Assembly: GCA_001829315.1 (NCBI GenBank) | Contig: MIAY01000017.1 | Location: 69,568 to 133,567 of the forward strand | Length of the DNA stretch: 64,000 nt | Source of the DNA: Spirochaetes bacterium GWE1_32_154 | GTDB taxonomy: Bacteria; Spirochaetota; GWE2-31-10 | Reading direction: 5' to 3' | Shown: piece by piece, positions 3,765 to 36,935 of the stretch | Layout: every line of letters starts with the position of its first letter | Position numbering within the stretch: position 1 is the first letter of the stretch | Made by a program: the position numbers and the translations under genes | Notes under the pieces: generated by a model | Databases searched by the model: none | Seen by the model: only the letters and a program-made list of their open reading frames with translations | Told to the model about the DNA's origin: nothing

Positions 3765-6344
3765 TTATGTTTCAAAAGGAAGTTTAATAGTAAATTTTGT
3801 CCATTCACCATCAAGTGACTCTACAGAAATAGAACCTTTATGCGTCTGGGTAATAATAAAATACGTCACGGTCAACCCGAGACCCGTTCCTACCCCGACA
3901 GGTTTTGTAGTAAAAAATGGTTCAAATATTCTTTTACGAACACTATCAGTCATTCCGCCACCATTATCCTGTATTACGATAATGATTTCACTTCCGATTT
4001 CTCTAAAGGTGGAAACTTGCAATTCCGGTTTATATTCAGTAACCGATTGCGTTGCTTTTTCAATCATGGAAAAAGCAGCATTTTTAATAAGATTAATAAA
4101 AACCTGCTCAATTTCAGTTTTTTTAATACTTATTAGCGGTAAATCAGGTGAATAATTTTTTACGATATTTATTTGTTTAAAGTCGTATTTCTTTTCTATA
4201 TCATAATCCGTACAAGTAAGATTAATGGTAAAATCAAGTATTTCATTAATTGACACGTCTTCTTTTCCGGCATTACTTTTCCTGCTGAAATTAAGCATAT
4301 TAGATACTATGTATGCTGCCCGTTTTCCTGATGAATTAATACCATCAATATAACTCAGTATATTTCTACGCTTCAAATATTCATTTATTTGTTCAAGTGA
4401 TATACCCAATTCATTACAAGTTTCCAGATTTGCAGGTAGCTCAGAAGATAAACGACGCATCATATTTTGCCCCCCCTGAATAATAGCAGCCAAAGGATTG
4501 TTAATTTCATGTGCCATACCGGCAGCCAGTTCACCAATAGTTACCATTTTTTCTGTTTGAACCAACATTTCCCTGAACCTGTTTTTTTCAGTAATATCAT
4601 CAAGAACTATAACAAGCCCCTCATTTTCAATCGGATAAATACTTATATCATAATAGTAGAAAACACCCTTTTCCTGTTTTTTAAGACTTTCAATAATAAC
4701 CATTTCCTGTGTAACACAAGACTCATTCATTTTTTTTTCAAGTTCGGTAAAATAATCAGTTAAATGTTTTAAATCATTCGTATTTTCAAATTCAAAAGGA
4801 AGCCCTGGTAATTTGAAGTTATTTGTAATAACGACATTTCGTTTATTATCAACAGCAATTATTAAAGACTGCATTGAGTTAATAACTTTATTTAGATAAT
4901 TTTTTGTACTCACAAGCTCCCTGCTCATCGCAATTGCATCTGATAAATCATTAAAAACAACATAAAGTTCATTATTTGCTAATGAAAATGATATTTCAAC
5001 ATCTCTTACAATACCATCCTTAGTTACAATTTTATATATTCGCCCTTTTGAATACATAACTCCTGAAGACACTGCAGTTTCAATATCTGACTTCCATAAT
5101 AATTCACTTTCTATGCGGTATTTTTCATCCGGATATGCTTTAAGACTCCATTCAGTGACTGTATGTACGTCACCAATATCATACCCGAATAATGATACAA
5201 ATTTTGCATTAACATAGATAAGTTTACCATCCAATCCGGCAACACCAATACCCACGGGTATATTCTCACTTAATGATCTGAATTTTTTTTCGCTTTGCCT
5301 GATTTCTTCTTCCCTGGATTTAATTGACATCTGCATTCTATTAAAATAATCGTAGAGTTGCTGAAATTCATATAATCCGCTCAATGCACCACCTTCAGAA
5401 TATTCACCTGATGATAATCGATCCATACTTTTTACAAATCCTGCCAATGATTTATTAAATTTGACAAGTAAATTATTTGACATGACAAAAAGCATTACTA
5501 ATAATACAATCAAATAACCGAATTGAATATAATTTATCTGACGAACTACAAAAAAAACATCTTCTTCTTCCTGATCTATAATAATAGTCCAATGAATATT
5601 TTCGAGATACAGATAACTCACCAGAATTTTATTTTTTCCTGATTTCCGCTCAAAAACACCTGATTTATTTATTTTCAATTCTTTTAATAATTCAACATCA
5701 ACTTTATAACTTTCAGCATAAAAAGCTTTATCCGTCACAATATATACACCATTTCTATCAAGTATACTTGCTGTAATCGAACTTTCTTTACTGATATCTG
5801 CAATCTTTTCCTCAATGACTACCAAATTAATATATGCAACAATTATATACTCATTCATAGGGAAAGCAACAGTGAGAGAGCGATTTGAAGTTTCATTTGA
5901 AACAAAAGACTTTGACCAGAAAGGTTTGCCGGATTTTTTAGTCTCGGTGAAAAATTCACTTCTTGCATAACTAAAACCGACAGAAGATACAAGTATTTTT
6001 GATGCAGAAACAACGGTTCCATATTCATCAAGAATCATTATTCCATCAAAAAAATCATAACTGTCAGCATAAGTATCAAGTAATGTATTCACACTTACAG
6101 ATTGTGGAGTATTTTTCCGGATGGTAATTATTTTACTTAAATTATTTAGAATATTAATTTTTTCCTCATAATAATTATCTATAATTATCGATATACTATT
6201 TATTAAAATTTTATTTTGTTTATACACATACTTTTTCATCTGTGAAAAAATCATAACCAGAGAGAAAAATACAAATATAAGATTAAATAGCACAACAAGA
6301 AGAACAGTATAAAGAAATATACCTTTAATGCTTCTATTCATCAT
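3765..6344 (-). CDS. membrane sensor histidine kinase (extracytoplasmic sensor, PAS, HisKA, HATPase)
   Basis: 859 residues. There is one membrane helix at about 10-33, a large extracytoplasmic Cache-like sensor, and a second helix at about 275-297. A PAS domain follows (ENIPVGIGVAGLDGKLIYVN), then a second PAS-like region. The kinase core has the H-box ELAAGMAHEINNPLA, the N-box FINLIKNAAFSM, and G-boxes DNGGGM and TGLGLTV. Its ATG overlaps the stop of the upstream LivK-like lipoprotein gene as TAATG, so the two are translationally coupled. The likely design is that the lipoprotein binds a small molecule and the kinase reads its state. No response regulator lies next to it. Confidence 0.9.
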   Translation of the reverse strand: MMNRSIKGIFLYTVLLVVLFNLIFVFFSLVMIFSQMKKYVYKQNKILINSISIIIDNYYEEKINILNNLSKIITIRKNTPQSVSVNTLLDTYADSYDFFDGIMILDEYGTVVSASKILVSSVGFSYARSEFFTETKKSGKPFWSKSFVSNETSNRSLTVAFPMNEYIIVAYINLVVIEEKIADISKESSITASILDRNGVYIVTDKAFYAESYKVDVELLKELKINKSGVFERKSGKNKILVSYLYLENIHWTIIIDQEEEDVFFVVRQINYIQFGYLIVLLVMLFVMSNNLLVKFNKSLAGFVKSMDRLSSGEYSEGGALSGLYEFQQLYDYFNRMQMSIKSREEEIRQSEKKFRSLSENIPVGIGVAGLDGKLIYVNAKFVSLFGYDIGDVHTVTEWSLKAYPDEKYRIESELLWKSDIETAVSSGVMYSKGRIYKIVTKDGIVRDVEISFSLANNELYVVFNDLSDAIAMSRELVSTKNYLNKVINSMQSLIIAVDNKRNVVITNNFKLPGLPFEFENTNDLKHLTDYFTELEKKMNESCVTQEMVIIESLKKQEKGVFYYYDISIYPIENEGLVIVLDDITEKNRFREMLVQTEKMVTIGELAAGMAHEINNPLAAIIQGGQNMMRRLSSELPANLETCNELGISLEQINEYLKRRNILSYIDGINSSGKRAAYIVSNMLNFSRKSNAGKEDVSINEILDFTINLTCTDYDIEKKYDFKQINIVKNYSPDLPLISIKKTEIEQVFINLIKNAAFSMIEKATQSVTEYKPELQVSTFREIGSEIIIVIQDNGGGMTDSVRKRIFEPFFTTKPVGVGTGLGLTVTYFIITQTHKGSISVESLDGEWTKFTIKLPFET

Positions 6345-7432
6345 TATTCTATCCGTTTAAACTGACCATTTTTGATTGTATATAAATAAAGCTCTCTTAC
6401 ACCGTCACCAAATTCATCAATACCGATTTGCTGTTGTACACCTTGAAATGTTTTTATTGATTTTAGTGCAGTTAAAACATCATTGTTTTTAACTCGCTTT
6501 AATACTTCAGCAGCATATTGGGCTGATTCATATCCGAAAAGTCCGCTAAAGTTCGGGTATTCATTATATACTTCAAAATATTTATTTTTAAACTTCTGAT
6601 AAGAAGGTTCATTATCATGAAGAAGAAATAAACTGACATGAACTGTATCTTCAACAGACTCACCACCATTTTCAATTAAAGCTCCCATTATCGACCATGC
6701 CGACATCATTACTCTGGAAGTAACTTTCTTTTTTCTTAATACCTGACACAGCTTCGCATTGGTAACAGAATCATTAATTGCAAGTATTACATCTGCATTA
6801 TCCTTATAAAGAATATCAGCAACCTCATTAAGATCTTTCTTTTGATCATTGTTTAATATAATACTATTTAATACTCTTTTATCATTCCCAAGTTCATTTA
6901 AAAATGAATTCATAATTACTTCAGCAAAAGATTTATTATCAATATCATAAATGATATTCACTGTTTTATATCCAATTTTTTTTGCATATGCACCAAGATA
7001 TTTTCCCTGATAATCATTTGAACTTGTTATTCTGAAAAGATAATCATCCAGTCCGGAAAAATTATCACCTGAAATTGTTGCCGAAATCATAGGAATTTTT
7101 AATTGATTAGCTTTTATTTGAGCTTCTAATCCTTCACCGCTTGTGAGATGACCAATTACGATTGCGGCACCTTTATTATAAACATCTTCAATGCACTCTC
7201 CGGTTTTATCCGGCATACTTTGCACATCTGCTTCTATCAATTCAACCCTGCGACCATTTATACCGCCACTTTTATTCAATTCATCAAAATAGAGTAGCGC
7301 CCCATTTCGTCCGTTTGCACCGAGTGGTGCACCACTACCGCTTAAACTCCCAATAAAACCAACCTTGTATGTTTTACTTCCACATCCGGTCAGCAGAAAT
7401 AACAGAAAAAAAAGCGTGATGAATTTACTCAT
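6344..7432 (-). CDS. LivK-like periplasmic ligand-binding lipoprotein
   Basis: 362 residues with a signal sequence and lipobox LLTGCGSK, followed by YKVGFIGSLSGSGAPLGAN and GGINGRRVELIEAD. These are hallmarks of the type I periplasmic binding fold used by branched-chain amino acid and amide ABC transporters. No permease or ATPase gene is adjacent. The next gene is a sensor kinase whose start overlaps this stop codon, so this protein more likely serves as a sensory co-receptor than as a transport component. The ligand is unknown. Confidence 0.85.
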   Translation of the reverse strand: MSKFITLFFLLFLLTGCGSKTYKVGFIGSLSGSGAPLGANGRNGALLYFDELNKSGGINGRRVELIEADVQSMPDKTGECIEDVYNKGAAIVIGHLTSGEGLEAQIKANQLKIPMISATISGDNFSGLDDYLFRITSSNDYQGKYLGAYAKKIGYKTVNIIYDIDNKSFAEVIMNSFLNELGNDKRVLNSIILNNDQKKDLNEVADILYKDNADVILAINDSVTNAKLCQVLRKKKVTSRVMMSAWSIMGALIENGGESVEDTVHVSLFLLHDNEPSYQKFKNKYFEVYNEYPNFSGLFGYESAQYAAEVLKRVKNNDVLTALKSIKTFQGVQQQIGIDEFGDGVRELYLYTIKNGQFKRIE

Positions 7433-7525
7433 ATAAAACTCCTCACTAATAGTATAAAATATAATTTTTTAAAATGAAATAGGATATACTACAAAAAAAG
7501 CCTATAAATAAAAAAACAAACACAA

Positions 7526-7645
7526 GAGACTCTTGCAAAAATCATGATTACATTATTTTTGTTCCCGTCGATACGCAATTAAATTGCGTTAGAGGTAGCC
7601 TCATGCAAAAATTCAAGATTTAAAGAGTATTTTTGCAAGAGGCTC
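7526..7645. mobile_element. palindromic MITE-like element, copy A
   Basis: A 120-bp copy of the dispersed element: it begins GAGACTCTTGCAAAAAT and ends TTTTTGCAAGAGGCTC. The 4 bp ACAA flank it on both sides as a direct duplication. The central hairpin has arms ACGCAAT/ATTGCGT around TAA. It lies between the LivK/kinase operon and the downstream outer-membrane protein gene and carries no open frame of note. Confidence 0.88.
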
Positions 7646-7702
7646 ACAAGGCATGTTTTTTTAAATGCATATTATAAATTTAATTCTTCAAGACACCTCT
7701 AT

Positions 7703-8512
7703 TTATTCACGCCAGTTTATCTTTTTAACTTCATCATTATTCTGTCGTACCATAAATGAAAATTTAAAACTTATTGAAAATGCCCCGCTTAAAAAATGGA
7801 TTATGTCCATATTGGGATAAGCCTGATTTGTATAACTAAACTCATACCCTGTATCAATTCCAACTGCATACGTTACACCTGAAGGATAATTAAAAGTCCA
7901 TGTATGATCAACTTGAATTGCACTCTTGTTTTTTATTGAATTTCTCATAAACATTGAACCAAATGAAAAAACATTCTGAAATGTCGTTCTAAAAGTATAA
8001 TTTATTCTTTTTTTATTTGTTCCTGCCATTATACTTGCAAATAGAGGAAACCCGACAGTTAAATTCGGGTAGTAATCAAGTCCACTTCCAATTTTTAACG
8101 ATACATTACAGTTCCCTTTTATAAGAGCTCTTTTCCAGCTTATATTAGATAAAAGTGTCGGCCCAAAAAATGCAAAATCTGTAAACATCTCATTAACTAT
8201 CGGTGATACAATCAGAAAAGTGCCACCAATTTCATCATTATTACTAACTGCATAATATTTCCCGCCACCTAAAGCTAATGTTGGTATTGCTGTTAATAAA
8301 AATGCCGGATAAAGGTCACCTCTTTTGTTTGTCAAATCATTATAATGATATAAGGGAAATTCGGTAAACCATGAATAAATCCCGCCCTGACTGGTACCTT
8401 TATCAAGAACTTTTGCATCATCAAATAAATCTCTATAGATTCGGGCTGAAACAATGTCATGTATAGAAAAAAGTATTACAACGACACATGATACGATTTT
8501 TATTATTTTCAT
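7703..8512 (-). CDS. probable outer-membrane beta-barrel protein
   Basis: 269 residues. A signal peptide (hydrophobic core at 5-20, cleavage probably near VSA-R) is followed by alternating polar and aromatic stretches such as YTFRTTFQNVFSFGSMF and FLSGAFSISFKFSFMV, typical of membrane beta-strands. There is no recognisable conserved domain. It begins 31 bp after the LVIVD-repeat lipoprotein gene and is probably cotranscribed with it, so the two may act together at the outer membrane. The function is unknown. Confidence 0.6.
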   Translation of the reverse strand: MKIIKIVSCVVVILFSIHDIVSARIYRDLFDDAKVLDKGTSQGGIYSWFTEFPLYHYNDLTNKRGDLYPAFLLTAIPTLALGGGKYYAVSNNDEIGGTFLIVSPIVNEMFTDFAFFGPTLLSNISWKRALIKGNCNVSLKIGSGLDYYPNLTVGFPLFASIMAGTNKKRINYTFRTTFQNVFSFGSMFMRNSIKNKSAIQVDHTWTFNYPSGVTYAVGIDTGYEFSYTNQAYPNMDIIHFLSGAFSISFKFSFMVRQNNDEVKKINWRE

Positions 8513-8543
8513 TTTTTCTCCATATTGTTGTAAAAAGCAATTA

Positions 8544-9857
8544 CTACTTTTTAATTGTTATTGTTGATAATTGATTTAAATCATTACTGGTATCAATACT
8601 GTACTGACGAAGTTCTTCAGGTCCGGTCACCATGATAAGTGAAGCTGATACAGGTATGACATCATACGTTTCAAAATCACCAATCTGTTTTATAAATGTT
8701 ACATCAGGTATCTTACTGATGTCATACAATTTAAGTCCTGCAGTGCCATCACATACGAACAAACTGTTATTGAGAATCCCAAGTCCATACGGCCCCTGCA
8801 TTGAAACTGTTTTTTTTAGTTCCGGTTTAATTATGTTGCTAATGTCAATTACTTCAAGCTCATTCTGAGAACCGTTCCAATTTCCGGCTCGTAATGTAAC
8901 ATACGCGAAATCCCCCTGCGCAACAACCGGGTCAAAACTTCGCACATGAAGAAACCTTGACTTAAATTGTGGATTTGAAGGGTCTTCAACGCTATAAATG
9001 TACATTCCATTCTGAGCACCGATAAAAAGCAATTCTTTTTCAGCATAGGGATATATTGTCTCAATATTTATTCCAATATTGATGTTACTGAAAAGAACAG
9101 GATTTGCAGGGATTTCAATATTAAAAAGCTGAAGTGCTTTTTCACCGACAATAGTATATAAAAAGTTTTTATAAATAGTAAATTTTGCCATTGAACCACC
9201 CTGACCGGTCTGCACATTTTCAGCCATCGCATCAGTGGCCATCATTCCGCCAAAACCCCGCATATAACCTGTTTGCATATCAGAGGTGATACGGGTTTCA
9301 ACTTTTCTATCCCACCTGATTACAACGCCCTTTGAATCATCAATATTTTCAGAATATGTCGTCTGGTTTAAATCAGAATCATCACGACCGGCTGATGAAA
9401 CAAAGTATAAAACTTTTTCCAGTCTTTTGAGTGTAGTTACTGTATTCAAATCAGGAAGACCTGAAATATCAAGAGCTAAAAGGTCAACATAATTATCAGC
9501 ATATAGAACACCATCTCTAACAGCCATATCGATATTTCCAATGATCGCAACCATTCCAAGATATACCGGGGTTGATGGATTTGTGTTGTCATAAAAATGA
9601 ATACCTTTTTCTACCTCATTAATCAGCAGGTATGGATCGTAATAATAAATCTTGCCGGCGTTCGTCACTTCTTGCGGTTCAATCACTGACTTGACCGGTG
9701 AACGCATTTCTTCATAACTCATATAAACAGGTGAGTAAATAACAACTTCCTCGTAGGAACAGGAAAATGATATAACAGATATAAGGCTAAAAATAAAAAA
9801 ACAAGTTAATTGTATCAAATGTTTTAATAAGATCAGATTATTTGTATTTTTTTTCAT
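8544..9857 (-). CDS. LVIVD-repeat lipoprotein (beta-propeller-like)
   Basis: I place the start at 9857 (MKKNTNN), because GGAGG lies 7 bases upstream, rather than at the in-frame ATG 39 bases further up. The 437-residue product has a signal sequence ending in SVISFSC, a possible lipidation site. It then carries repeated blocks such as LLALDISGLPDL, LQLFNIEIPANPVL, MYIYSVEDPSNPQF, LEVIDISNIIKPEL and LKLYDISKIPDV. These are LVIVD-type repeats, which build a surface-exposed propeller. The role is unknown. The next gene down is a probable outer-membrane barrel. Confidence 0.8.
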   Translation of the reverse strand: MKKNTNNLILLKHLIQLTCFFIFSLISVISFSCSYEEVVIYSPVYMSYEEMRSPVKSVIEPQEVTNAGKIYYYDPYLLINEVEKGIHFYDNTNPSTPVYLGMVAIIGNIDMAVRDGVLYADNYVDLLALDISGLPDLNTVTTLKRLEKVLYFVSSAGRDDSDLNQTTYSENIDDSKGVVIRWDRKVETRITSDMQTGYMRGFGGMMATDAMAENVQTGQGGSMAKFTIYKNFLYTIVGEKALQLFNIEIPANPVLFSNINIGINIETIYPYAEKELLFIGAQNGMYIYSVEDPSNPQFKSRFLHVRSFDPVVAQGDFAYVTLRAGNWNGSQNELEVIDISNIIKPELKKTVSMQGPYGLGILNNSLFVCDGTAGLKLYDISKIPDVTFIKQIGDFETYDVIPVSASLIMVTGPEELRQYSIDTSNDLNQLSTITIKK

Positions 9858-20010: not shown

Positions 20011-20038
20011 AATAATACATCCTTTTTTATTTGATATA

Positions 20039-20083
20039 AAGGCTCTTGCAAAAACAAGTACCCTTTATTTTTGCAAGAGCCTT
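20039..20083. repeat. mini palindromic element, copy D (45 bp, both ends only)
   Basis: AAGGCTCTTGCAAAAA and TTTTTGCAAGAGCCTT face each other across 13 bases and are flanked by TATA on both sides. The two ends of the dispersed element are kept while the middle is lost. It forms a near-perfect hairpin just upstream of the GNAT gene. Confidence 0.8.
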
Positions 20084-20138
20084 TATAGTATAAATAGTCC
20101 TTTTTATTATAATTTGTTTGATATTTTTTATCATTTTA

Positions 20139-20327: not shown

Positions 20328-20546
20328 ATGAAAAAACTGCCGATTGGAATAAACACATTAGATACAATTATCAGCAAAGATCTGATCTATGTTGATAAAA
20401 CCTCTATCGCCCACAAGCTTATCAATACCTCAGGCAGATATTTCCTCTCCCGTCCGCGACGATTCGGCAAATCGCTTTTTATTGACACTCTGAAACAAAT
20501 CTTTGAAGGCAATAAAGACCTTTTCAAGGGATTATATATATATGAT
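20328..20546 (+). pseudogene. AAA-ATPase-like protein gene, 5' fragment
   Basis: The frame starts MKKLPIGINTLDTIISKDLI and runs through YVDKTSIAHKLI, GRYFLSRPRRFGKSLFIDTL and FEGNKDLFKGLYIYD. This is the N-terminus of the large AAA-ATPase-like family (PF09820) that usually ends in a PD-(D/E)XK domain. After GLYIYD at 20546 homology stops, and a short unrelated tail leads to a stop at 20577-20579. The expected continuation (DRWNWEK...) is found 2.2 kb away at 22772. The gene was therefore split by an inserted segment carrying the restriction-modification pair. Confidence 0.85.
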
Positions 20547-20584
20547 ATCGGCAAGAGTTGGGCAAGGCTGGAAGTATAAAAAAG

Positions 20585-20605
20585 AGCCCGCGTCCGTGCG
20601 GGCGA
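20585..20605. terminator. GC-rich hairpin at the left edge of the inserted segment
   Basis: GCCCGCGTCCGTGCGGGC forms a compact stem within AT-rich sequence, just after the stop of the AAA-ATPase fragment and 90 bp ahead of the methyltransferase gene. No T-run follows, so intrinsic termination is uncertain. It may insulate the inserted module. Confidence 0.4.
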
Positions 20606-20693
20606 AGATTATTAAAAGTAATAAAATATAAAGATGGTTAATTTCTGATTTTTTTATTATATTGATTACATAATTAATTTGGAGTAATAACTA

Positions 20694-21998
20694 ATGGCTT
20701 GGCATAAAATAATAAATGGTGACAGTCGTAAAATGAATAATATTGATGATAAATCAGTTCATTTGATTATAACATCACCGCCTTATTGGCAATTAAAAGA
20801 TTACGGAAGTGAAAATCAAATAGGATTTAATGATTCATATGAAAATTATATTAATAATATGAATTTAGTCTGGAATGAATGTTATCGTGTTCTGCATAAT
20901 GGATGTAGACTTTGTGTTAATATAGGAGATCAGTTTGCAAGGGCTGTTTATTATGGACGATATAAAGTTATACCAATACGAGAAGAAATCATAAAATTTT
21001 GTGAAAACATTGGTTTTGATTATATGGGCGCCATAATCTGGCAAAAAGTTACCACATCAAATACAACTGGGGGTGGTGTTCAAATGGGTTCATATCCATA
21101 TCCAAGAAATGGAATATTAAAACTTGATTATGAATTCATCTTAGTATTTAAGAAACTTGGCGAAGCTCCAAAACCTACTATAGAACAAAAAGAATTATCA
21201 AAAATGACCGCGGATGAATGGAATACATATTTTGCAGGGCATTGGAATTTTTCAGGTGTCAGACAAAATAACCATATTGCTATGTTCCCAGAAGAATTAC
21301 CAAAAAGATTGATCAAAATGTTTTCTTTTGTAAATGAAACAATTTTAGATCCTTTTACAGGAAGTGGAACGACATTATTAGCAGCAAAAAATCTTGATAG
21401 AAATTCAATTGGTTATGAAATAAATCCTGATTTCATTCCTATTATTCAAGAGAAAATTGGAATTAATGAATTTAATTTGTCTAACTCTGAATATAAGATT
21501 TTTAAACAAGAAAATAATAATTCTAATTACAATATAGAAATTCAAAAGTTGCCTTATATTTTTAAAGATCCAAATATATTCGATAAAAAAATAGATGTAA
21601 AGAAACTACAATTTGGTTCTAAAATTGATAAAGACAGTAAAACAACCCGTGAAGAACTTTATACTGTAAAAGAAATTATTAGTCCAGAAAAAATAAAATT
21701 AAATAATGATTTAATAATAAAACTTATAGGAATAAAACAATCCTCTCAAACAATTGATAAAGCAATTTCTTTTTTAATAGAAAAAACAAAAGGGAAAAAA
21801 GTGTTTATTAAATACGATGATGTTAAACATGATTCAAATAATAATTTATTATGTTACCTTTATTTAGAGAATAAAACTTTTCTAAATGCACATTTACTAA
21901 AAAATGGATTAGCGGATGTTGATATAAATTATAATTATAAATATAAAAATAAATTTTTAAATTTTAAAATAGGGGAATTATTCATTGAAAGTAATTAA
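20694..21998 (+). CDS. DNA methyltransferase with a C-terminal nuclease-like (SNase-fold) domain
   Basis: 434 residues. The catalytic motif is ITSPPYWQLKDYG (residues about 28-40; SPPY is typical of N4-cytosine or beta-class methylases), with the AdoMet site ILDPFTGSGTTLLAAK at about 215-230. Residues about 315-434 (LYTVKEIISPEKIKL, LIIKLIGIKQ, GKKVFIKYDDVKHDSNNNL, FLNAHLLKNGLADV) look like the beta-barrel of staphylococcal nuclease-type domains. The MjaI-like endonuclease gene overlaps its end by 14 bp, so this is the protecting half of a type II restriction-modification system. Base composition is more AT-rich than the flanks, consistent with recent transfer. Confidence 0.88.
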   Translation: MAWHKIINGDSRKMNNIDDKSVHLIITSPPYWQLKDYGSENQIGFNDSYENYINNMNLVWNECYRVLHNGCRLCVNIGDQFARAVYYGRYKVIPIREEIIKFCENIGFDYMGAIIWQKVTTSNTTGGGVQMGSYPYPRNGILKLDYEFILVFKKLGEAPKPTIEQKELSKMTADEWNTYFAGHWNFSGVRQNNHIAMFPEELPKRLIKMFSFVNETILDPFTGSGTTLLAAKNLDRNSIGYEINPDFIPIIQEKIGINEFNLSNSEYKIFKQENNNSNYNIEIQKLPYIFKDPNIFDKKIDVKKLQFGSKIDKDSKTTREELYTVKEIISPEKIKLNNDLIIKLIGIKQSSQTIDKAISFLIEKTKGKKVFIKYDDVKHDSNNNLLCYLYLENKTFLNAHLLKNGLADVDINYNYKYKNKFLNFKIGELFIESN

Positions 21999-22578
21999 AA
22001 TATTAAATAATGAAATTTTATCATTATTAGAAGCAGAAGTACTTTCATTTCCTAAATATGCGACTCAGATACTTAATTTAGCAAATCAAAATGCTCAAGG
22101 AACAAGACCTGCAGTAGTAGGTCAAATGAGCGATTTAATTCAAGAATTTAAAGGCGATAAAATTAAAGATTGGGAAGAATGGTATTTAAATAAACATCCA
22201 GAAGCAATATCTTTAGCAGCGACAAAAATCTTTGATATGGTTAATCATTTTAAAGAAGTAATGACTCAAATAGATAAAGAAATGATTGAAAAATGGGTTA
22301 AAGATCTCGTAATAATAAAAACGTTTGTTGGATTAAAATTTCAGGAAGCAATTTTGAAATATGTCGCAAAGCAGTTTAGTTTTTCTTATAGACTAGCTGA
22401 ACCACAAGAAGAGTCACAAGGTATTGATGGCTTTATAAATGTAATTCCAGTTAGTATAAAACCTATCAGTTATGAAATAAAAAAGTCATTATCAGAAAAA
22501 ATTTTAGTATCTATTATTTTTTATAAGAAACTTAAAGATGGTATAAAAATATCTTATAATGAAAATGTTTTTTTGTAA
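21985..22578 (+). CDS. MjaI-family type II restriction endonuclease
   Basis: 197 residues. The segments ILNLANQNAQGTRPAVVGQM, HPEAISLAATKI, WVKDLVIIKTFVGLKFQEAI and EESQGIDGFINVIPVSIKP match the MjaI endonuclease family as I know it; MjaI itself cuts at CTAG. The ATG lies within the last codons of the methyltransferase gene, a normal arrangement for such pairs. It acts on unmodified incoming DNA in the cytoplasm. The last about 20 residues are poorly conserved. Whether it is active cannot be told from sequence. Confidence 0.8.
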   Translation: MKVIKILNNEILSLLEAEVLSFPKYATQILNLANQNAQGTRPAVVGQMSDLIQEFKGDKIKDWEEWYLNKHPEAISLAATKIFDMVNHFKEVMTQIDKEMIEKWVKDLVIIKTFVGLKFQEAILKYVAKQFSFSYRLAEPQEESQGIDGFINVIPVSIKPISYEIKKSLSEKILVSIIFYKKLKDGIKISYNENVFL

Positions 22579-22771
22579 ATTTTGCGACATCCATGTCGCT
22601 GCTTTATGGTATAACATTGCCCAACTCCAGTCGATAACAGCAAGTTGCCGGTTTCGGCGGAGAATACCGCCTACACCCAAATTGACCGCATATTTGGGTA
22701 ATATTATAGATTATTTTACAATATTTGATTATTATTTTTAAAATGCGGTCAACTTCGGCAATTTGCGAGGC
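22579..22771. other. non-coding right end of the inserted restriction-modification segment
   Basis: No gene is seen. The stretch is rich in inverted repeats: GCGACATCCATGTCGC (22583-22598), TTGACCGCAT/ATGCGGTCAA about 60 bp apart (22682-22752), and GGCGG/CCGCC. TTGCCCAACTC (22617-22627) is the reverse complement of GAGTTGGGCAA near the left edge of the insertion (about 20555-20565). GCCCAAC fits the integron core RYYYAAC, and GTTGGGC its partner GTTRRRY, but a complete attC fold is not evident. Confidence 0.5.
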
Positions 22772-23090
22772 GATAGATGGAATTGGGAAAAGTGTTTCCG
22801 GTTATTAAAATAGATTTTTGTGAAAACTTGAAGAATGGTACAATGGATATAATTTTCTCGGTGATAAAGTATATAATCCTTTTGATATTTTATTATTTAT
22901 AAGTGAGAATTGCATCTACCGCAACTACTGGTTTGAAACGGGAACCCCGACATTCCTTATAAAACTATTCAAAAAATATTGTTACTTTCTGCCCGATCTT
23001 GATACAATTACGGTTGGAGAAGAAATCATCAGTTCATTTGACATTGACCGGATTGATCCGGTAACTCTCCTTTTAAAAATCTTAACCTGA
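22772..23090 (+). pseudogene. AAA-ATPase-like protein gene, 3' fragments
   Basis: From 22772 the sequence reads DRWNWEK, then in the next frame FPVIKIDF, then after a deletion KLEEWYNGYNFLGDKVYNPF, DILLFISENCIYRNYWFETG, TPTFLIKLFKK and SSFDIDRIDPVTLLLKIL-stop. All are landmarks of the same family as the fragment at 20328, in order. A frameshift and a missing middle of roughly 200 codons add to the damage done by the inserted module. Confidence 0.85.
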
Positions 23091-32690: not shown

Positions 32691-34160
32691 TTATGTACTA
32701 TATTGCTTGAGTTTAATTGTAAAAAAAGTACCTTTCCCCATGTCACTTGAAACAATTAAATCACCTTTTAATTTACTTTTAACCAAATTATAAACTATAC
32801 TTAACCCTAACCCGGTTCCGCCTGAACCTCTTTTTGTTGTATAAAAAGGTTCAAATATTTTTCCTATTACATCCTTTGAAATACCACACCCGTCATCCGA
32901 ATATAAAATTTTCACAATATCACCATCTACAATTACCTCTATACGAATATATCCTGATTTTCTATTTTCAAACCCATGTATTATTGAGTTTAGTATAAGG
33001 TTAGTAAAAATCTGTGATAAAGCACCAGGATATGAATCAATAAAAAGACTCTCAGGACATAAAATTTCAATAGAATGATTTCCCTGTTTATATTGAGGTT
33101 TTAAACTAAGAACAATATCGTTTAAATAACTTTTAAGATTAAATATGCGTTTGAAATCAGTTGTTTGATCAACTGCAACCTGCTTAAAACTATGGATCAA
33201 TTGTGCTGCTTTATCAAGGTTGGAAACAATTAATTTAGATGTTTCAAAAGCCCCCTGACAATATTCATCAAGTGAACTCTTTTTTAAAGTATTATCCTTA
33301 ACTGAAGTATAGAAAATTTCTGTTTGCTGTTCAAGATATGAAGATGCTGTAAAACTGATTCCTATCGGAGTATTTATTTCATGGGCGATTCCTGCAACAA
33401 GACACCCAAGACTTGCCATTTTTTCTGATTCAACTAATTCTTTTGTTCGTTGAACAACAATTTGTTCAAGATTGTCACTATAATTCTTTATTGTTAAAGC
33501 CATTGTATTAAAATTGGATGATAAAACACCAAATTCATCATTCGTTATTGTTTTAATCTTAGTATCAAACTTTTTTTCAGAGAATAAAGTGACCGCATTA
33601 GTTAAAATACGTATTTGTTTAATAACAAGTACATATATAATTGAAAATGAAATGATAATAAAAAACAATAAATACAATAATAGTTTAAAAATTGACTCTG
33701 TAATCACATTAATTATTTTTTCTTTAGAATATGAATTATTCGTGTACACCGTAACTGAACCAATCTGTAATGTATCTTTCATAATATTTTTATTATATAT
33801 TTTATTACTTACTATTTGAGTAGAATTAAAATCTTTCGTTACTACCTTTTCACCTGATTTATTGTAATAGATATACAACGGTAATTTATCCGGGGTATAT
33901 ACAATTGCTACACCGGATATAAAACTTGCATTTAATTCAAAACTAATAACCTTTATCATTGATTCTTCATCGAGATTCCAAACCGGATTCGAAAGATTAT
34001 AGGTCATCCTTTCAAATACCATTTCATATTCTTTATCCAATTCTTTTTTAATTTTATTTATATCAAAAATAAGATAAAGAGCATTAACGATAGTCATAAA
34101 TAAAATAGATGAGAGAAAAAAAGCTATAATTATTTTTGTTACTATCGACACTTGTTTCAT
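32691..34160 (-). CDS. sensor histidine kinase with HAMP domain
   Basis: The start at 34160 (MKQVSIVTK) has AAAGAG at 8 bases; an ATG nine codons upstream is less likely. Two membrane helices (about 5-28 and 165-188) bracket a small extracytoplasmic domain. A HAMP segment follows, then the kinase core: H-box LVAGIAHEINTPIGISFTAS, N-box ILNSIIHGFEN, G-boxes YSDDGCGIS and GGTGLGLSI. The H-box with NTPIG and the ENRKSG N-box region closely resemble the kinase at 57.1 kb. It pairs with the DUF3369 regulator. Confidence 0.92.
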   Translation of the reverse strand: MKQVSIVTKIIIAFFLSSILFMTIVNALYLIFDINKIKKELDKEYEMVFERMTYNLSNPVWNLDEESMIKVISFELNASFISGVAIVYTPDKLPLYIYYNKSGEKVVTKDFNSTQIVSNKIYNKNIMKDTLQIGSVTVYTNNSYSKEKIINVITESIFKLLLYLLFFIIISFSIIYVLVIKQIRILTNAVTLFSEKKFDTKIKTITNDEFGVLSSNFNTMALTIKNYSDNLEQIVVQRTKELVESEKMASLGCLVAGIAHEINTPIGISFTASSYLEQQTEIFYTSVKDNTLKKSSLDEYCQGAFETSKLIVSNLDKAAQLIHSFKQVAVDQTTDFKRIFNLKSYLNDIVLSLKPQYKQGNHSIEILCPESLFIDSYPGALSQIFTNLILNSIIHGFENRKSGYIRIEVIVDGDIVKILYSDDGCGISKDVIGKIFEPFYTTKRGSGGTGLGLSIVYNLVKSKLKGDLIVSSDMGKGTFFTIKLKQYST

Positions 34161-34243
34161 TTGATAACTCTTTACGATTTTATACATTCAAAACCAACGT
34201 ATGAATTATAGCAGAAAATAAAACATTTGGCATTATTTCCCGG

Positions 34244-35281
34244 TTATTTTTTTAACTTTCCAAGCAGATTACAATAAAAGCAATCCGATCTCTCATCTTC
34301 ATAATCTAAAAATTCATGGAAACTGTTTTCAACTATAAAAAAATTATCAGATTGCTTAATCTTCTTCATAAACAATCGTGTTTGTCTATTATCAACAACC
34401 CGGTCATTGGAAGCTATATAGCTAAAAACTGGAATTGTAAAGTTGCGATAAGCATTTTGTATAATTCTATTTTGTTGTTTAATCATTGAAGATAACCACG
34501 CATACGAATTGATTCGATGAATTCTTGTATCAGGAAATCGCCTTGTTAAAAATAATGTATTATCTGATATATTACTGTTCATTTTTATATACGTTTTTAA
34601 ATCACCATTAATTATAGCTTTTTGAGAATTTTCACGCAGTAATAAGGATTTCTTAAACGGGTATAGTGGAAGAAAAAAATGCGTTAAAGGTTTAATAATT
34701 CTTGAATGTATTTTTAAATATGGTGCAAATAAAAATATTTTTTTCACGAGTATTTTTTGCTCTACCTTTGCATAGTGAGAATACCATTCAAGAATTACCG
34801 GTGCCCCGGATGAAAAAGCAGTTAAGAAAATTTCAGGATACACCTGAAAATTTTCATGAAATAAAGTAATTCCTTTTTCAATAATACAATCAAGATTTCT
34901 GATAAAATCATCATCATTTTTTATTCCGCCTCGAATTCCATCAGATTCACCACAGCCTTCCTGATCAAACACGATACAATTATACCCATTCATCAGATAA
35001 AAATAAATCAGTTTTGAATGTAGTGAGGAGTTCTCCGCTGTCCCATGATGAAAAATAATTAATGGTTTCGATGAATCAATAAGCCAGATTTCGTAAAATA
35101 TTGAATGATTATTATGATTTTTACTGTAACCATTACTTTTGTATGTATCAAAATCATTATTAAACAATAAACCATGTTCTGATGATACAGAAATTAAAAC
35201 ATTCTGTCCAAAAAAAACATCCGAATAGCTAAATGATACTTTTTGACGTACATGTCTTTGAAGGTTTCTGTCAATTCCCAT
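34244..35281 (-). CDS. alpha/beta hydrolase (serine hydrolase, lysophospholipase-like)
   Basis: 345 residues. KPLIIFHHGTAENSSLHSKL is the oxyanion-hole region, CIVFDQEGCGESDG the strand after it, and FLTAFSSGAPVI the nucleophile elbow (AFSSG in place of the usual GxSxG). The Asp is in YIASNDRVVDNRQT and the His in VENSFHEFLDY. There is no signal peptide. It overlaps the end of the radical SAM gene by 11 bp and is translated after it. The substrate is unknown. Confidence 0.82.
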   Translation of the reverse strand: MGIDRNLQRHVRQKVSFSYSDVFFGQNVLISVSSEHGLLFNNDFDTYKSNGYSKNHNNHSIFYEIWLIDSSKPLIIFHHGTAENSSLHSKLIYFYLMNGYNCIVFDQEGCGESDGIRGGIKNDDDFIRNLDCIIEKGITLFHENFQVYPEIFLTAFSSGAPVILEWYSHYAKVEQKILVKKIFLFAPYLKIHSRIIKPLTHFFLPLYPFKKSLLLRENSQKAIINGDLKTYIKMNSNISDNTLFLTRRFPDTRIHRINSYAWLSSMIKQQNRIIQNAYRNFTIPVFSYIASNDRVVDNRQTRLFMKKIKQSDNFFIVENSFHEFLDYEDERSDCFYCNLLGKLKK

Positions 35282-36935
35282 TTTTTACATTCTCAATTAT
35301 TGTAATACATGTTCCATTCTCATAAATAAAAAACAATTCAGTCCTCAGTGTTTCCAGTGTAAACGGATTATGATTGAACACTTCATAATTAGTATTTATA
35401 AAACCGCTTCTTGTTGATTCACCGGCTGCATATTTTTTAATCAAATGATGGTGAACATCCTTGTCATACATTCGATTATACCACTCGGGAAAACTTTTCA
35501 CGGGGCTATACGAAATAAAATCAAACTTTAATAAATCAATACAAATATCAGGTAAATGATTTTCCTTCAAATACAGGTACAAAAATAAATAATAATCTGT
35601 TGTTTTCTTAGCATCAACAAACGCTCCTGATTTTTCCAGGAAACATTTCAATTCATGAAATAATGAAAAGGGGTCATTCATATTCAACAAATAATCAATC
35701 GTTTTACTAAACCGTTTTGAATTATAATAGATATCTACAACGTGTTCAATATCCTTAATAATTAATAATTCTTCGTATGAAAGGTCCGGGGTGGAAATAA
35801 TTTCATACGGTGGAGAGCTGAAAAACATAAAACCTTCTTTTTCAGCAGTTTTCGCCATTTCAGTTCCTGATAATACTTTAAGAAACCCGAGTTGCATCAT
35901 ATCGGGCTTTAATCGTATTGTATAATTAAACGATTTAATAAATTTCTGTAAACTTTCTTTTGGAAGTCCGGCAATCAAATCAAGGTGTATATGAATATTT
36001 TCCGGTATTTTTTTAATCATTTCTCTTTGTTTCACTATGTCAGAATTTCGTGCAACAATTTCAAGCGTCTCTTCATTAATTGTCTGAATACCAACTTCAA
36101 ATTGAATAACGTCCTTGCCAATACCATTCAATACTGTAAAATCATCATCAGACAAACGGTCTGCAGTAATTTCAAAATGAAATGTAGTAATATTATTATG
36201 ATTATCAATAATAAACTTCCAAATTGGAAGATAATGTTCTTTTTTTAAATTAAAAGTTCTGTCTACAAATTTAACAAGCGGAACATTGTGTTGCAAAAAC
36301 AAAGAAATATCACGTTGTACTCTTTCAAGGCTAAAAAACCTCACCGTCTTATCAATCGATGATATACAATACGAACAATTATAAGGACAACCTCGTGAAG
36401 ACTCATAGTAAATGATCTTATTTTCTAATAACTCAAGTTCATCTGGAAGGTAAGGAAACGGGATTTCATCAGGATTTTCAATAAGCAACGCTTTACCTGT
36501 ATTAATAATTAGACTATCTTTTCTATAGTATACCCCTGGAGGCAATTGTTCTTTTAAAAGAGAAGAAACGACAACTTCCCCCTCGCCTTCAACACAATAA
36601 TCTATCTGCGTATACTCTTCCATAATTTCCTGAGCCCGATACGCAACTTCAGGACCACCGGTAATAATTTTGACACCAGGCAGAATCTTTTTTATTTCAG
36701 TGATAATTTTTAAACTGAATTCAACATTCCAGATATAGATAGAAAGTAAAACGACAGCAGGTTTTTCCTTATATATTTCTGATAGAATTGTATGCACCTG
36801 CTGATTAATTGTAAATTCTTTAATAACAGGAGTTACATCTGAATTATGCTGCAACAGATAATTTCTAATATATCGAAGAGCTAAATTTGTTTGAATAAAT
36901 TTTGAATTAATTGCAACTAATAAAACTTTTCTCAT
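35271..36935 (-). CDS. B12-binding radical SAM protein (DUF4080 type)
   Basis: I place the start at 36935 (MRKVLLVAINSKFIQTNLAL). The longer frame runs back into element copy F and is rejected. Residues about 1-135 form a cobalamin-binding fold, residues about 180-400 a radical SAM domain with CPYNCSYC as the [4Fe-4S] ligand motif, and the C-terminus resembles DUF4080. Such proteins probably perform methylation or rearrangement on unknown substrates. The hydrolase gene overlaps its stop. Confidence 0.87.
   Translation of the reverse strand: MRKVLLVAINSKFIQTNLALRYIRNYLLQHNSDVTPVIKEFTINQQVHTILSEIYKEKPAVVLLSIYIWNVEFSLKIITEIKKILPGVKIITGGPEVAYRAQEIMEEYTQIDYCVEGEGEVVVSSLLKEQLPPGVYYRKDSLIINTGKALLIENPDEIPFPYLPDELELLENKIIYYESSRGCPYNCSYCISSIDKTVRFFSLERVQRDISLFLQHNVPLVKFVDRTFNLKKEHYLPIWKFIIDNHNNITTFHFEITADRLSDDDFTVLNGIGKDVIQFEVGIQTINEETLEIVARNSDIVKQREMIKKIPENIHIHLDLIAGLPKESLQKFIKSFNYTIRLKPDMMQLGFLKVLSGTEMAKTAEKEGFMFFSSPPYEIISTPDLSYEELLIIKDIEHVVDIYYNSKRFSKTIDYLLNMNDPFSLFHELKCFLEKSGAFVDAKKTTDYYLFLYLYLKENHLPDICIDLLKFDFISYSPVKSFPEWYNRMYDKDVHHHLIKKYAAGESTRSGFINTNYEVFNHNPFTLETLRTELFFIYENGTCITIIENVKNGN

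Follow-up and report, generated by a model that had tools for sequence, protein, structure and literature searches.

The analysed window is a 64,000-nucleotide stretch of the genome of Spirochaetes bacterium GWE1_32_154 (contig MIAY01000017.1, positions 69,568 to 133,567). It harbours an AAA-ATPase-like gene whose reading frame is cut directly after the residues GLYIYD by a 2.2-kb insert, which holds the two genes of a restriction-modification (RM) system. The locus comprises the following features:

20328–20544, plus strand: 5' fragment of the PF09820 AAA-ATPase-like gene, up to the crossover G (Pfam; paralogues aligned across the junction).
20545–22772, plus strand: the insert, a cassette of 2228 bp (end complementarity, attC geometry, empty-site paralogues).
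20544–20565, plus strand: 5' half-site, with R' box GATATCG, spacer GCAA and outer box GAGTTGGGCAA; 18 of 22 positions match the reverse complement of 22617–22638.
20586–20603, minus strand: hairpin GCCCGCACGGACGCGGGC with a T tail on the minus strand, in surroundings equivalent to the start of the first cassette of an array on contig 15 of the same genome (22 nt identical).
20694–21998, plus strand: N4/N6 DNA methyltransferase of 434 residues with an SNase-like C-terminal domain (PF01555, PF00565; PDLC03259 MTase_II).
21985–22578, plus strand: MjaI-family restriction endonuclease of 197 residues with a TTG start (PF09568), overlapping the methyltransferase gene by 14 nt.
22584–22599, plus strand: terminator-like hairpin GCGACATCCATGTCGC behind the endonuclease gene; this hairpin is also present close to the end of a contig-15 cassette.
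22617–22638, plus strand: 3' half-site, with outer box TTGCCCAACTC, spacer CAGT and R'' box CGATAAC (end complementarity).
22640–22766, plus strand: L'' and L' hairpin arms, GCAAGTTGCCG (22640–22650) and CGGCAATTTGC (22756–22766), separated by a long variable loop, with the inner spacers of the contig-15 array (1 and 5 nt).
22773–23090, plus strand: degraded 3' fragment of the host gene, with about 460 bp gone and frameshifts relative to paralogues.

The 5' fragment of the host gene matches PF09820 with an E value of 2.2e-26 in a Pfam profile search, and GATA is present at both borders of the insert, at 20544–20547 and 22772–22775. Searching the genome with the joined flanks retrieved two paralogues, C36:119608 and C43:99671, which run unbroken across the junction and have one GATA where the window has two. 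They follow the pattern TATGATAA[CT]TGGAATTGGG, and their junction sequences with the lone GATA are TATGATAACTGGAATTGGG and TATGATAATTGGAATTGGG. The borders are therefore right to within one base. A preliminary description of this DNA had proposed the interruption after GLYIYD, the GATA at both junctions and precise borders, to be checked against family members; the paralogues bear out these proposals and refine the borders to 20545–22772, or to 20544–22771 given the ambiguity within the shared G. Beyond the insert, where the description had the frame resume, the 3' portion of the host gene is not intact. The ATPase-like gene has decayed past the insertion, and at least five paralogues are found elsewhere in the genome. 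Between an acetyltransferase-like gene and the ATPase-like gene, a strong hairpin (GGCTCTTGCAAAAA...TTTTTGCAAGAGCC, 20034–20086) is probably a terminator; Rfam miRNA matches at 20034–20098 score under the gathering thresholds and are explained by a plain hairpin.

The methyltransferase gene is intact within the insert, and its product matches the PDLC03259 MTase_II profile over nearly its full length (594.7 bits). The endonuclease belongs to the PF09568 family: it scores 219 bits against the RE_MjaI profile, for a curated cut-off of 22.7, and covers positions 1–164 of 164. It is 52% identical to the MjaI-family enzyme of a Methanothermobacter plasmid. MjaI and MthZI recognise CTAG. Like those systems, the pair in the window combines a full-profile RE_MjaI protein with an N4/N6 methyltransferase, but here the methyltransferase has an SNase-like tail, the pair sits in a cassette and its specificity is predicted. 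By this analogy the RM pair is probably CTAG-specific. In the window CTAG occurs 17 times for 46 expected, which is suggestive of the same specificity, though weakly so, since many bacteria are poor in CTAG.

The RM homologues detected in other genomes of the phylum share the RM genes only. Their homology begins near the methyltransferase start, with no flanks or cassette ends in common, and nothing therefore puts the borders elsewhere, the outcome that would have contradicted the preliminary description. Matches of the RM pair among plasmids came only from Methanothermobacter; no match was found in viral contigs, and one short methylase match was present in a Fusobacterium phage. The gene content proposed in the preliminary description, an MjaI-like endonuclease and its methyltransferase, is established by PF09568 over the full profile and by PF01555. 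The AT-richness that it ascribed to the insert is mainly confined to the methyltransferase and endonuclease part, at 19–31% GC versus approximately 31–36% around it. Its reading of the insert as an acquired defence module is supported but incomplete, as it missed the probable carrier, an integron-type cassette with a half-site at each end.

In a repeat search, the two ends of the insert proved mutually complementary, 20543–20565 with 22617–22639. Pairing of 18 of 22 nucleotides was reached by only 5 of 2,000,000 random pairs of 22-mers drawn from the window, that is, approximately 2.5e-6 per position pair. When joined, the ends fold as single-stranded DNA into an attC-like hairpin of −35.1 kcal/mol, versus −17.9 (sd 2.9) for shuffled sequences (z = −6.0; none of 200 shuffles as good). 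This hairpin displays the R and L boxes and the crossover of attC sites; it has an outer box in addition, and one base differs in the window (GAT). The crossover is G|ATA, and with AAC-1 nt-L''...L'-5 nt-G[T/A]T the site has the same inner geometry as the contig-15 array. At the left junction the sequence is GATATCG, versus GTTATCG predicted from the R'' box of the cassette itself, so that one base must have changed; GAT in place of the expected GTT is best explained by one later substitution. The cassette is solitary, outside any array, and no identical copy of it was found in any array. An Rfam search revealed no family matching the recombination sites.

Contig 15 of the same genome harbours an array of four cassettes with three long related palindromes, on the strand opposite to, and divergent from, a gene for a 265-residue tyrosine recombinase. 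The likeness of the window cassette to this array extends to both ends. At the 5' end, 22 of 22 nucleotides around the hairpin AAGAGCCCGCGTCCGTGCGGGC are identical to the start of a contig-15 cassette, and at the 3' end the shared sequence consists of the hairpin GCGACATCC-TGTCGC followed by GGTAT-ACA...GATAACAGC. In cassettes of this type the match between a cassette's own ends spans approximately 20 nt. It runs through an R box of about 9 bp with GTT/AAC and, past a short mismatch, through an outer box of 8–11 bp, and stops there. Inside the R box, the palindrome has spacers of 1–2 and 4–5 nt ahead of the L arms. We found this extended match in the window, in three cassettes of contig 15, on contigs 12 and 43 and in five cassettes of three relatives. 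The arrays are head-to-tail, in contig 15 and in several relatives: the cassette starts obtained by end matching fall on the GTT of the attC before them, an agreement not expected by chance of two unrelated features.

Approximately 60 bp ahead of the first cassette are alike on contigs 15 and 43. The contig-43 cassette (L113, 17356–17960) belongs to the same type; the attI-like stretch upstream of it resembles that of contig 15, and it apparently has no intact recombinase of the contig-15 family beside it. A second solitary cassette of this type, with a YhgA/Rpn-like gene, lies on the minus strand of contig 12 at about 70,200–71,400 (L112, 10228–11400), immediately after the stop codon that ends a thioredoxin-like gene, with the crossover G|TT (G|TTG). 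Contig 12 also harbours, at about 22,000 (L027, approximately 6870–7110), a second, internally deleted contig-15-like recombinase gene, now a remnant.

The contig-15 recombinase retains the conserved R, K, H, R, H and Y catalytic residues. Its alignment with ten IntI proteins revealed that it is patchless, i.e. lacks the IntI-specific insertion, and it matches the sequence of the IntI4 structure in two parts, on either side of that insertion. It scores 192 bits with the integron integrase model, for a cut-off of 265, versus 397–399 for the IntI integrase that this genome encodes on contig 2. The I2 domain, the additional domain specific to IntI, is thus absent from the contig-15 protein and present in the contig-2 IntI. 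The best NCBIfam match of the former is NF040815, at 205.6 bits for a cut-off of 220. Its predicted fold is nearest to IntI4 and XerA (pLDDT 84, pTM 0.60, the domain arrangement being uncertain). Our trees place it outside XerC/D with full support and exclude it from the IntI clade (100/100). More generally, the array-associated recombinases are fully supported as distinct from XerC/D and are neighbours of IntI. Those with divergent arrays form a group (85/74, or 94/87 with one Firmicutes sequence, in two trees), and the trees do not fix the branching order of the patchless lineages relative to IntI. The Firmicutes sequence that joins this clade (94/87) is a patchless recombinase of Firmicutes bacterium HGW-Firmicutes-8 (L130, 3554–5959), whose locus has one weak attC-like site upstream, on the opposite strand.

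Matches of at least 220 bits to the recombinase profile were obtained in approximately 81 of 392 genomes of the phylum. We take this phylum to be Spirochaetota, since FlaA, a flagellar family of spirochaetes, is present four times in this genome and absent from all control genomes. Using a detector that combines own-end matching with the inner attC geometry, we read some 56 recombinase loci of the phylum and identified cassettes at about 20 of them, many of the others being at contig ends. Patchless recombinases beside cassettes with the same extended sites occur in approximately 20 other genomes of the phylum. The arrays are divergent from the recombinase gene in one clade and downstream of it in others, and cassette genes code for ParE and HigB toxins, a ThsB-like TIR protein, a methyltransferase and an Rpn-like protein. 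The detector found no cassettes in 80 control loci around IntI, Xer and other recombinases of named genomes (1.08 Mb), in shuffled sequence, or in the flanks of patchless relatives from Bacteroidota. The window cassette falls short of the strict threshold (7/9 in the R box) and was found with relaxed settings. A strict call at 33683–36715 of the window (minus strand) was a false positive within genes, the sole false call in the remainder of the window. On the array side, the contigs of relatives (L086, L090, L213, L216, L217) often stop less than 500 bp from the recombinase gene, which would be expected if assemblies break at repeated sites.

Altogether, the insert is most probably a mobile, integron-type RM cassette moved by a patchless recombinase of the contig-15 type into a non-array, attG-like site. 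Under this mechanism the cassette would be excised as a circle, and its joined ends, perhaps on a single strand, would form a long attC-like hairpin comprising the outer, R and L boxes. The contig-15-type enzyme would then recombine this circle with a target, at a G|[A/T]T triplet. In the usual case the target may be the attI-like site beside the recombinase gene, so that an array is built, while in the window it would have been the GATA inside the ATPase-like gene, in an attG-like, off-array insertion. The contig-12 cassette, at G|TTG, would likewise be off-array, in the manner of the attG insertions of IntI. Flanked by hairpins, the inserted cassette presumably has its own promoter, from which its genes would be expressed; the methyltransferase would shield the genome and the endonuclease would cut incoming unmethylated DNA.

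We also considered other origins. The genome carries an ordinary IntI integron on contig 2 (L023, C2:45300–54309) with its own array and a different attC type, and given that a true IntI is available and that IntI insertion at attG sites is known (Loot 2024, as cited in PMC12901181), the cassette might have come from that integron and been inserted off-array by its integrase. The contig-2 cassettes have own-end matches of only 8–11 nt and other attC sequences, whereas the 22-nt ends and the 1- and 5-nt spacers of the window cassette are of the contig-15 kind, making this origin unlikely. The inverted ends and the GATA at both junctions would also fit a transposon-like element with terminal inverted repeats of about 22 bp and a GATA target duplication, mobilised in trans by an unrelated transposase. 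We hold this to be very improbable: the insert contains the RM genes only, with no transposase of its own, terminal repeats do not explain the second, asymmetric hairpin at the 3' side, and ends of the same kind are repeated in head-to-tail arrays that adjoin a recombinase gene at a fixed position.

RM genes are frequently transferred without any carrier, and homologues of this pair occur elsewhere without cassette ends, so that a precise but accidental insertion by illegitimate recombination, with end repeats arising by chance, might also be envisaged. The rarity of an 18/22 end match, the z-score of the fold and the sequence shared between the ends and the contig-15 array leave this scenario with hardly any credibility. 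The integron-type cassette moved by a contig-15-type recombinase therefore remains our favoured interpretation.

The window cassette and its relatives resemble IntI integron cassettes and their attC sites, such as those of contig 2 and of Vibrio IntI4, in that an imperfect palindrome containing R and L boxes closes the gene unit, the crossover is at G|TT, and head-to-tail arrays of mixed accessory genes (toxin-antitoxin, RM, TIR) start beside a tyrosine recombinase gene. They differ from them by the recombinase, which lacks the IntI-specific insertion, by ends that are complementary over about 20 nt (R and outer boxes) versus 8–11, and by spacers of 1–2 and 4–5 nt. The element would work like an integron cassette, yet it is not a member of the IntI integrons as defined, because the defining integrase domain is absent from the contig-15 recombinase. 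With attG insertions, which are known for IntI (as cited in PMC12901181 and PMC12444791), it shares a single cassette in a chromosomal gene, away from arrays, at a G[AT]T triplet, which is G|AT in the window; the solitary cassette on contig 12 lies at G|TT. The known attG insertions are made by IntI, whereas the cassette type in the window points to a patchless recombinase. The contig-15 enzyme is similar to XerA-type tyrosine recombinases in its size, its lack of the insertion and its best NCBIfam match; in contrast, the array-associated recombinases are apart from XerC/D, beside IntI, with cassette arrays adjoining.

Acquisition of the I2 helix is considered to have enabled integron integrases to recombine single-strand hairpins, and the origin of integrons is hard to test for want of intermediates (PMC7790495). 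As the usual searches use the IntI insertion as a marker (PMC8352920), patchless arrays would be missed. Among spirochaetes, integrons had been reported in Treponema only as of 2013 (PMC3607928). Passages of a tyrosine recombinase survey state that the insertion is not fully conserved in an integron-like subgroup (PMC8138268), and those passages do not mention cassette arrays. In the open literature searched, outside which lie most subscription journals and preprints, we found no description of cassette arrays beside patchless recombinases. Such recombinases, beside attC-like arrays, constitute natural test material for the origin of integron hairpin recombination, and in the window a patchless-type cassette has carried a whole restriction system to an off-array place. 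A tentative proposal, which we regard as possible though rather doubtful, is that cassette arrays with folded attC-like sites predate the IntI-specific domain; the patchless recombinases of Spirochaetota might then be living relatives of the integron's ancestor, still capturing cassettes via longer double-stranded arms that replace the I2 contacts. Of note, cassette 5159–8821 of the contig-2 integron resembles a type I restriction-modification system, with HsdM- and HsdS-like proteins recognised by eye.
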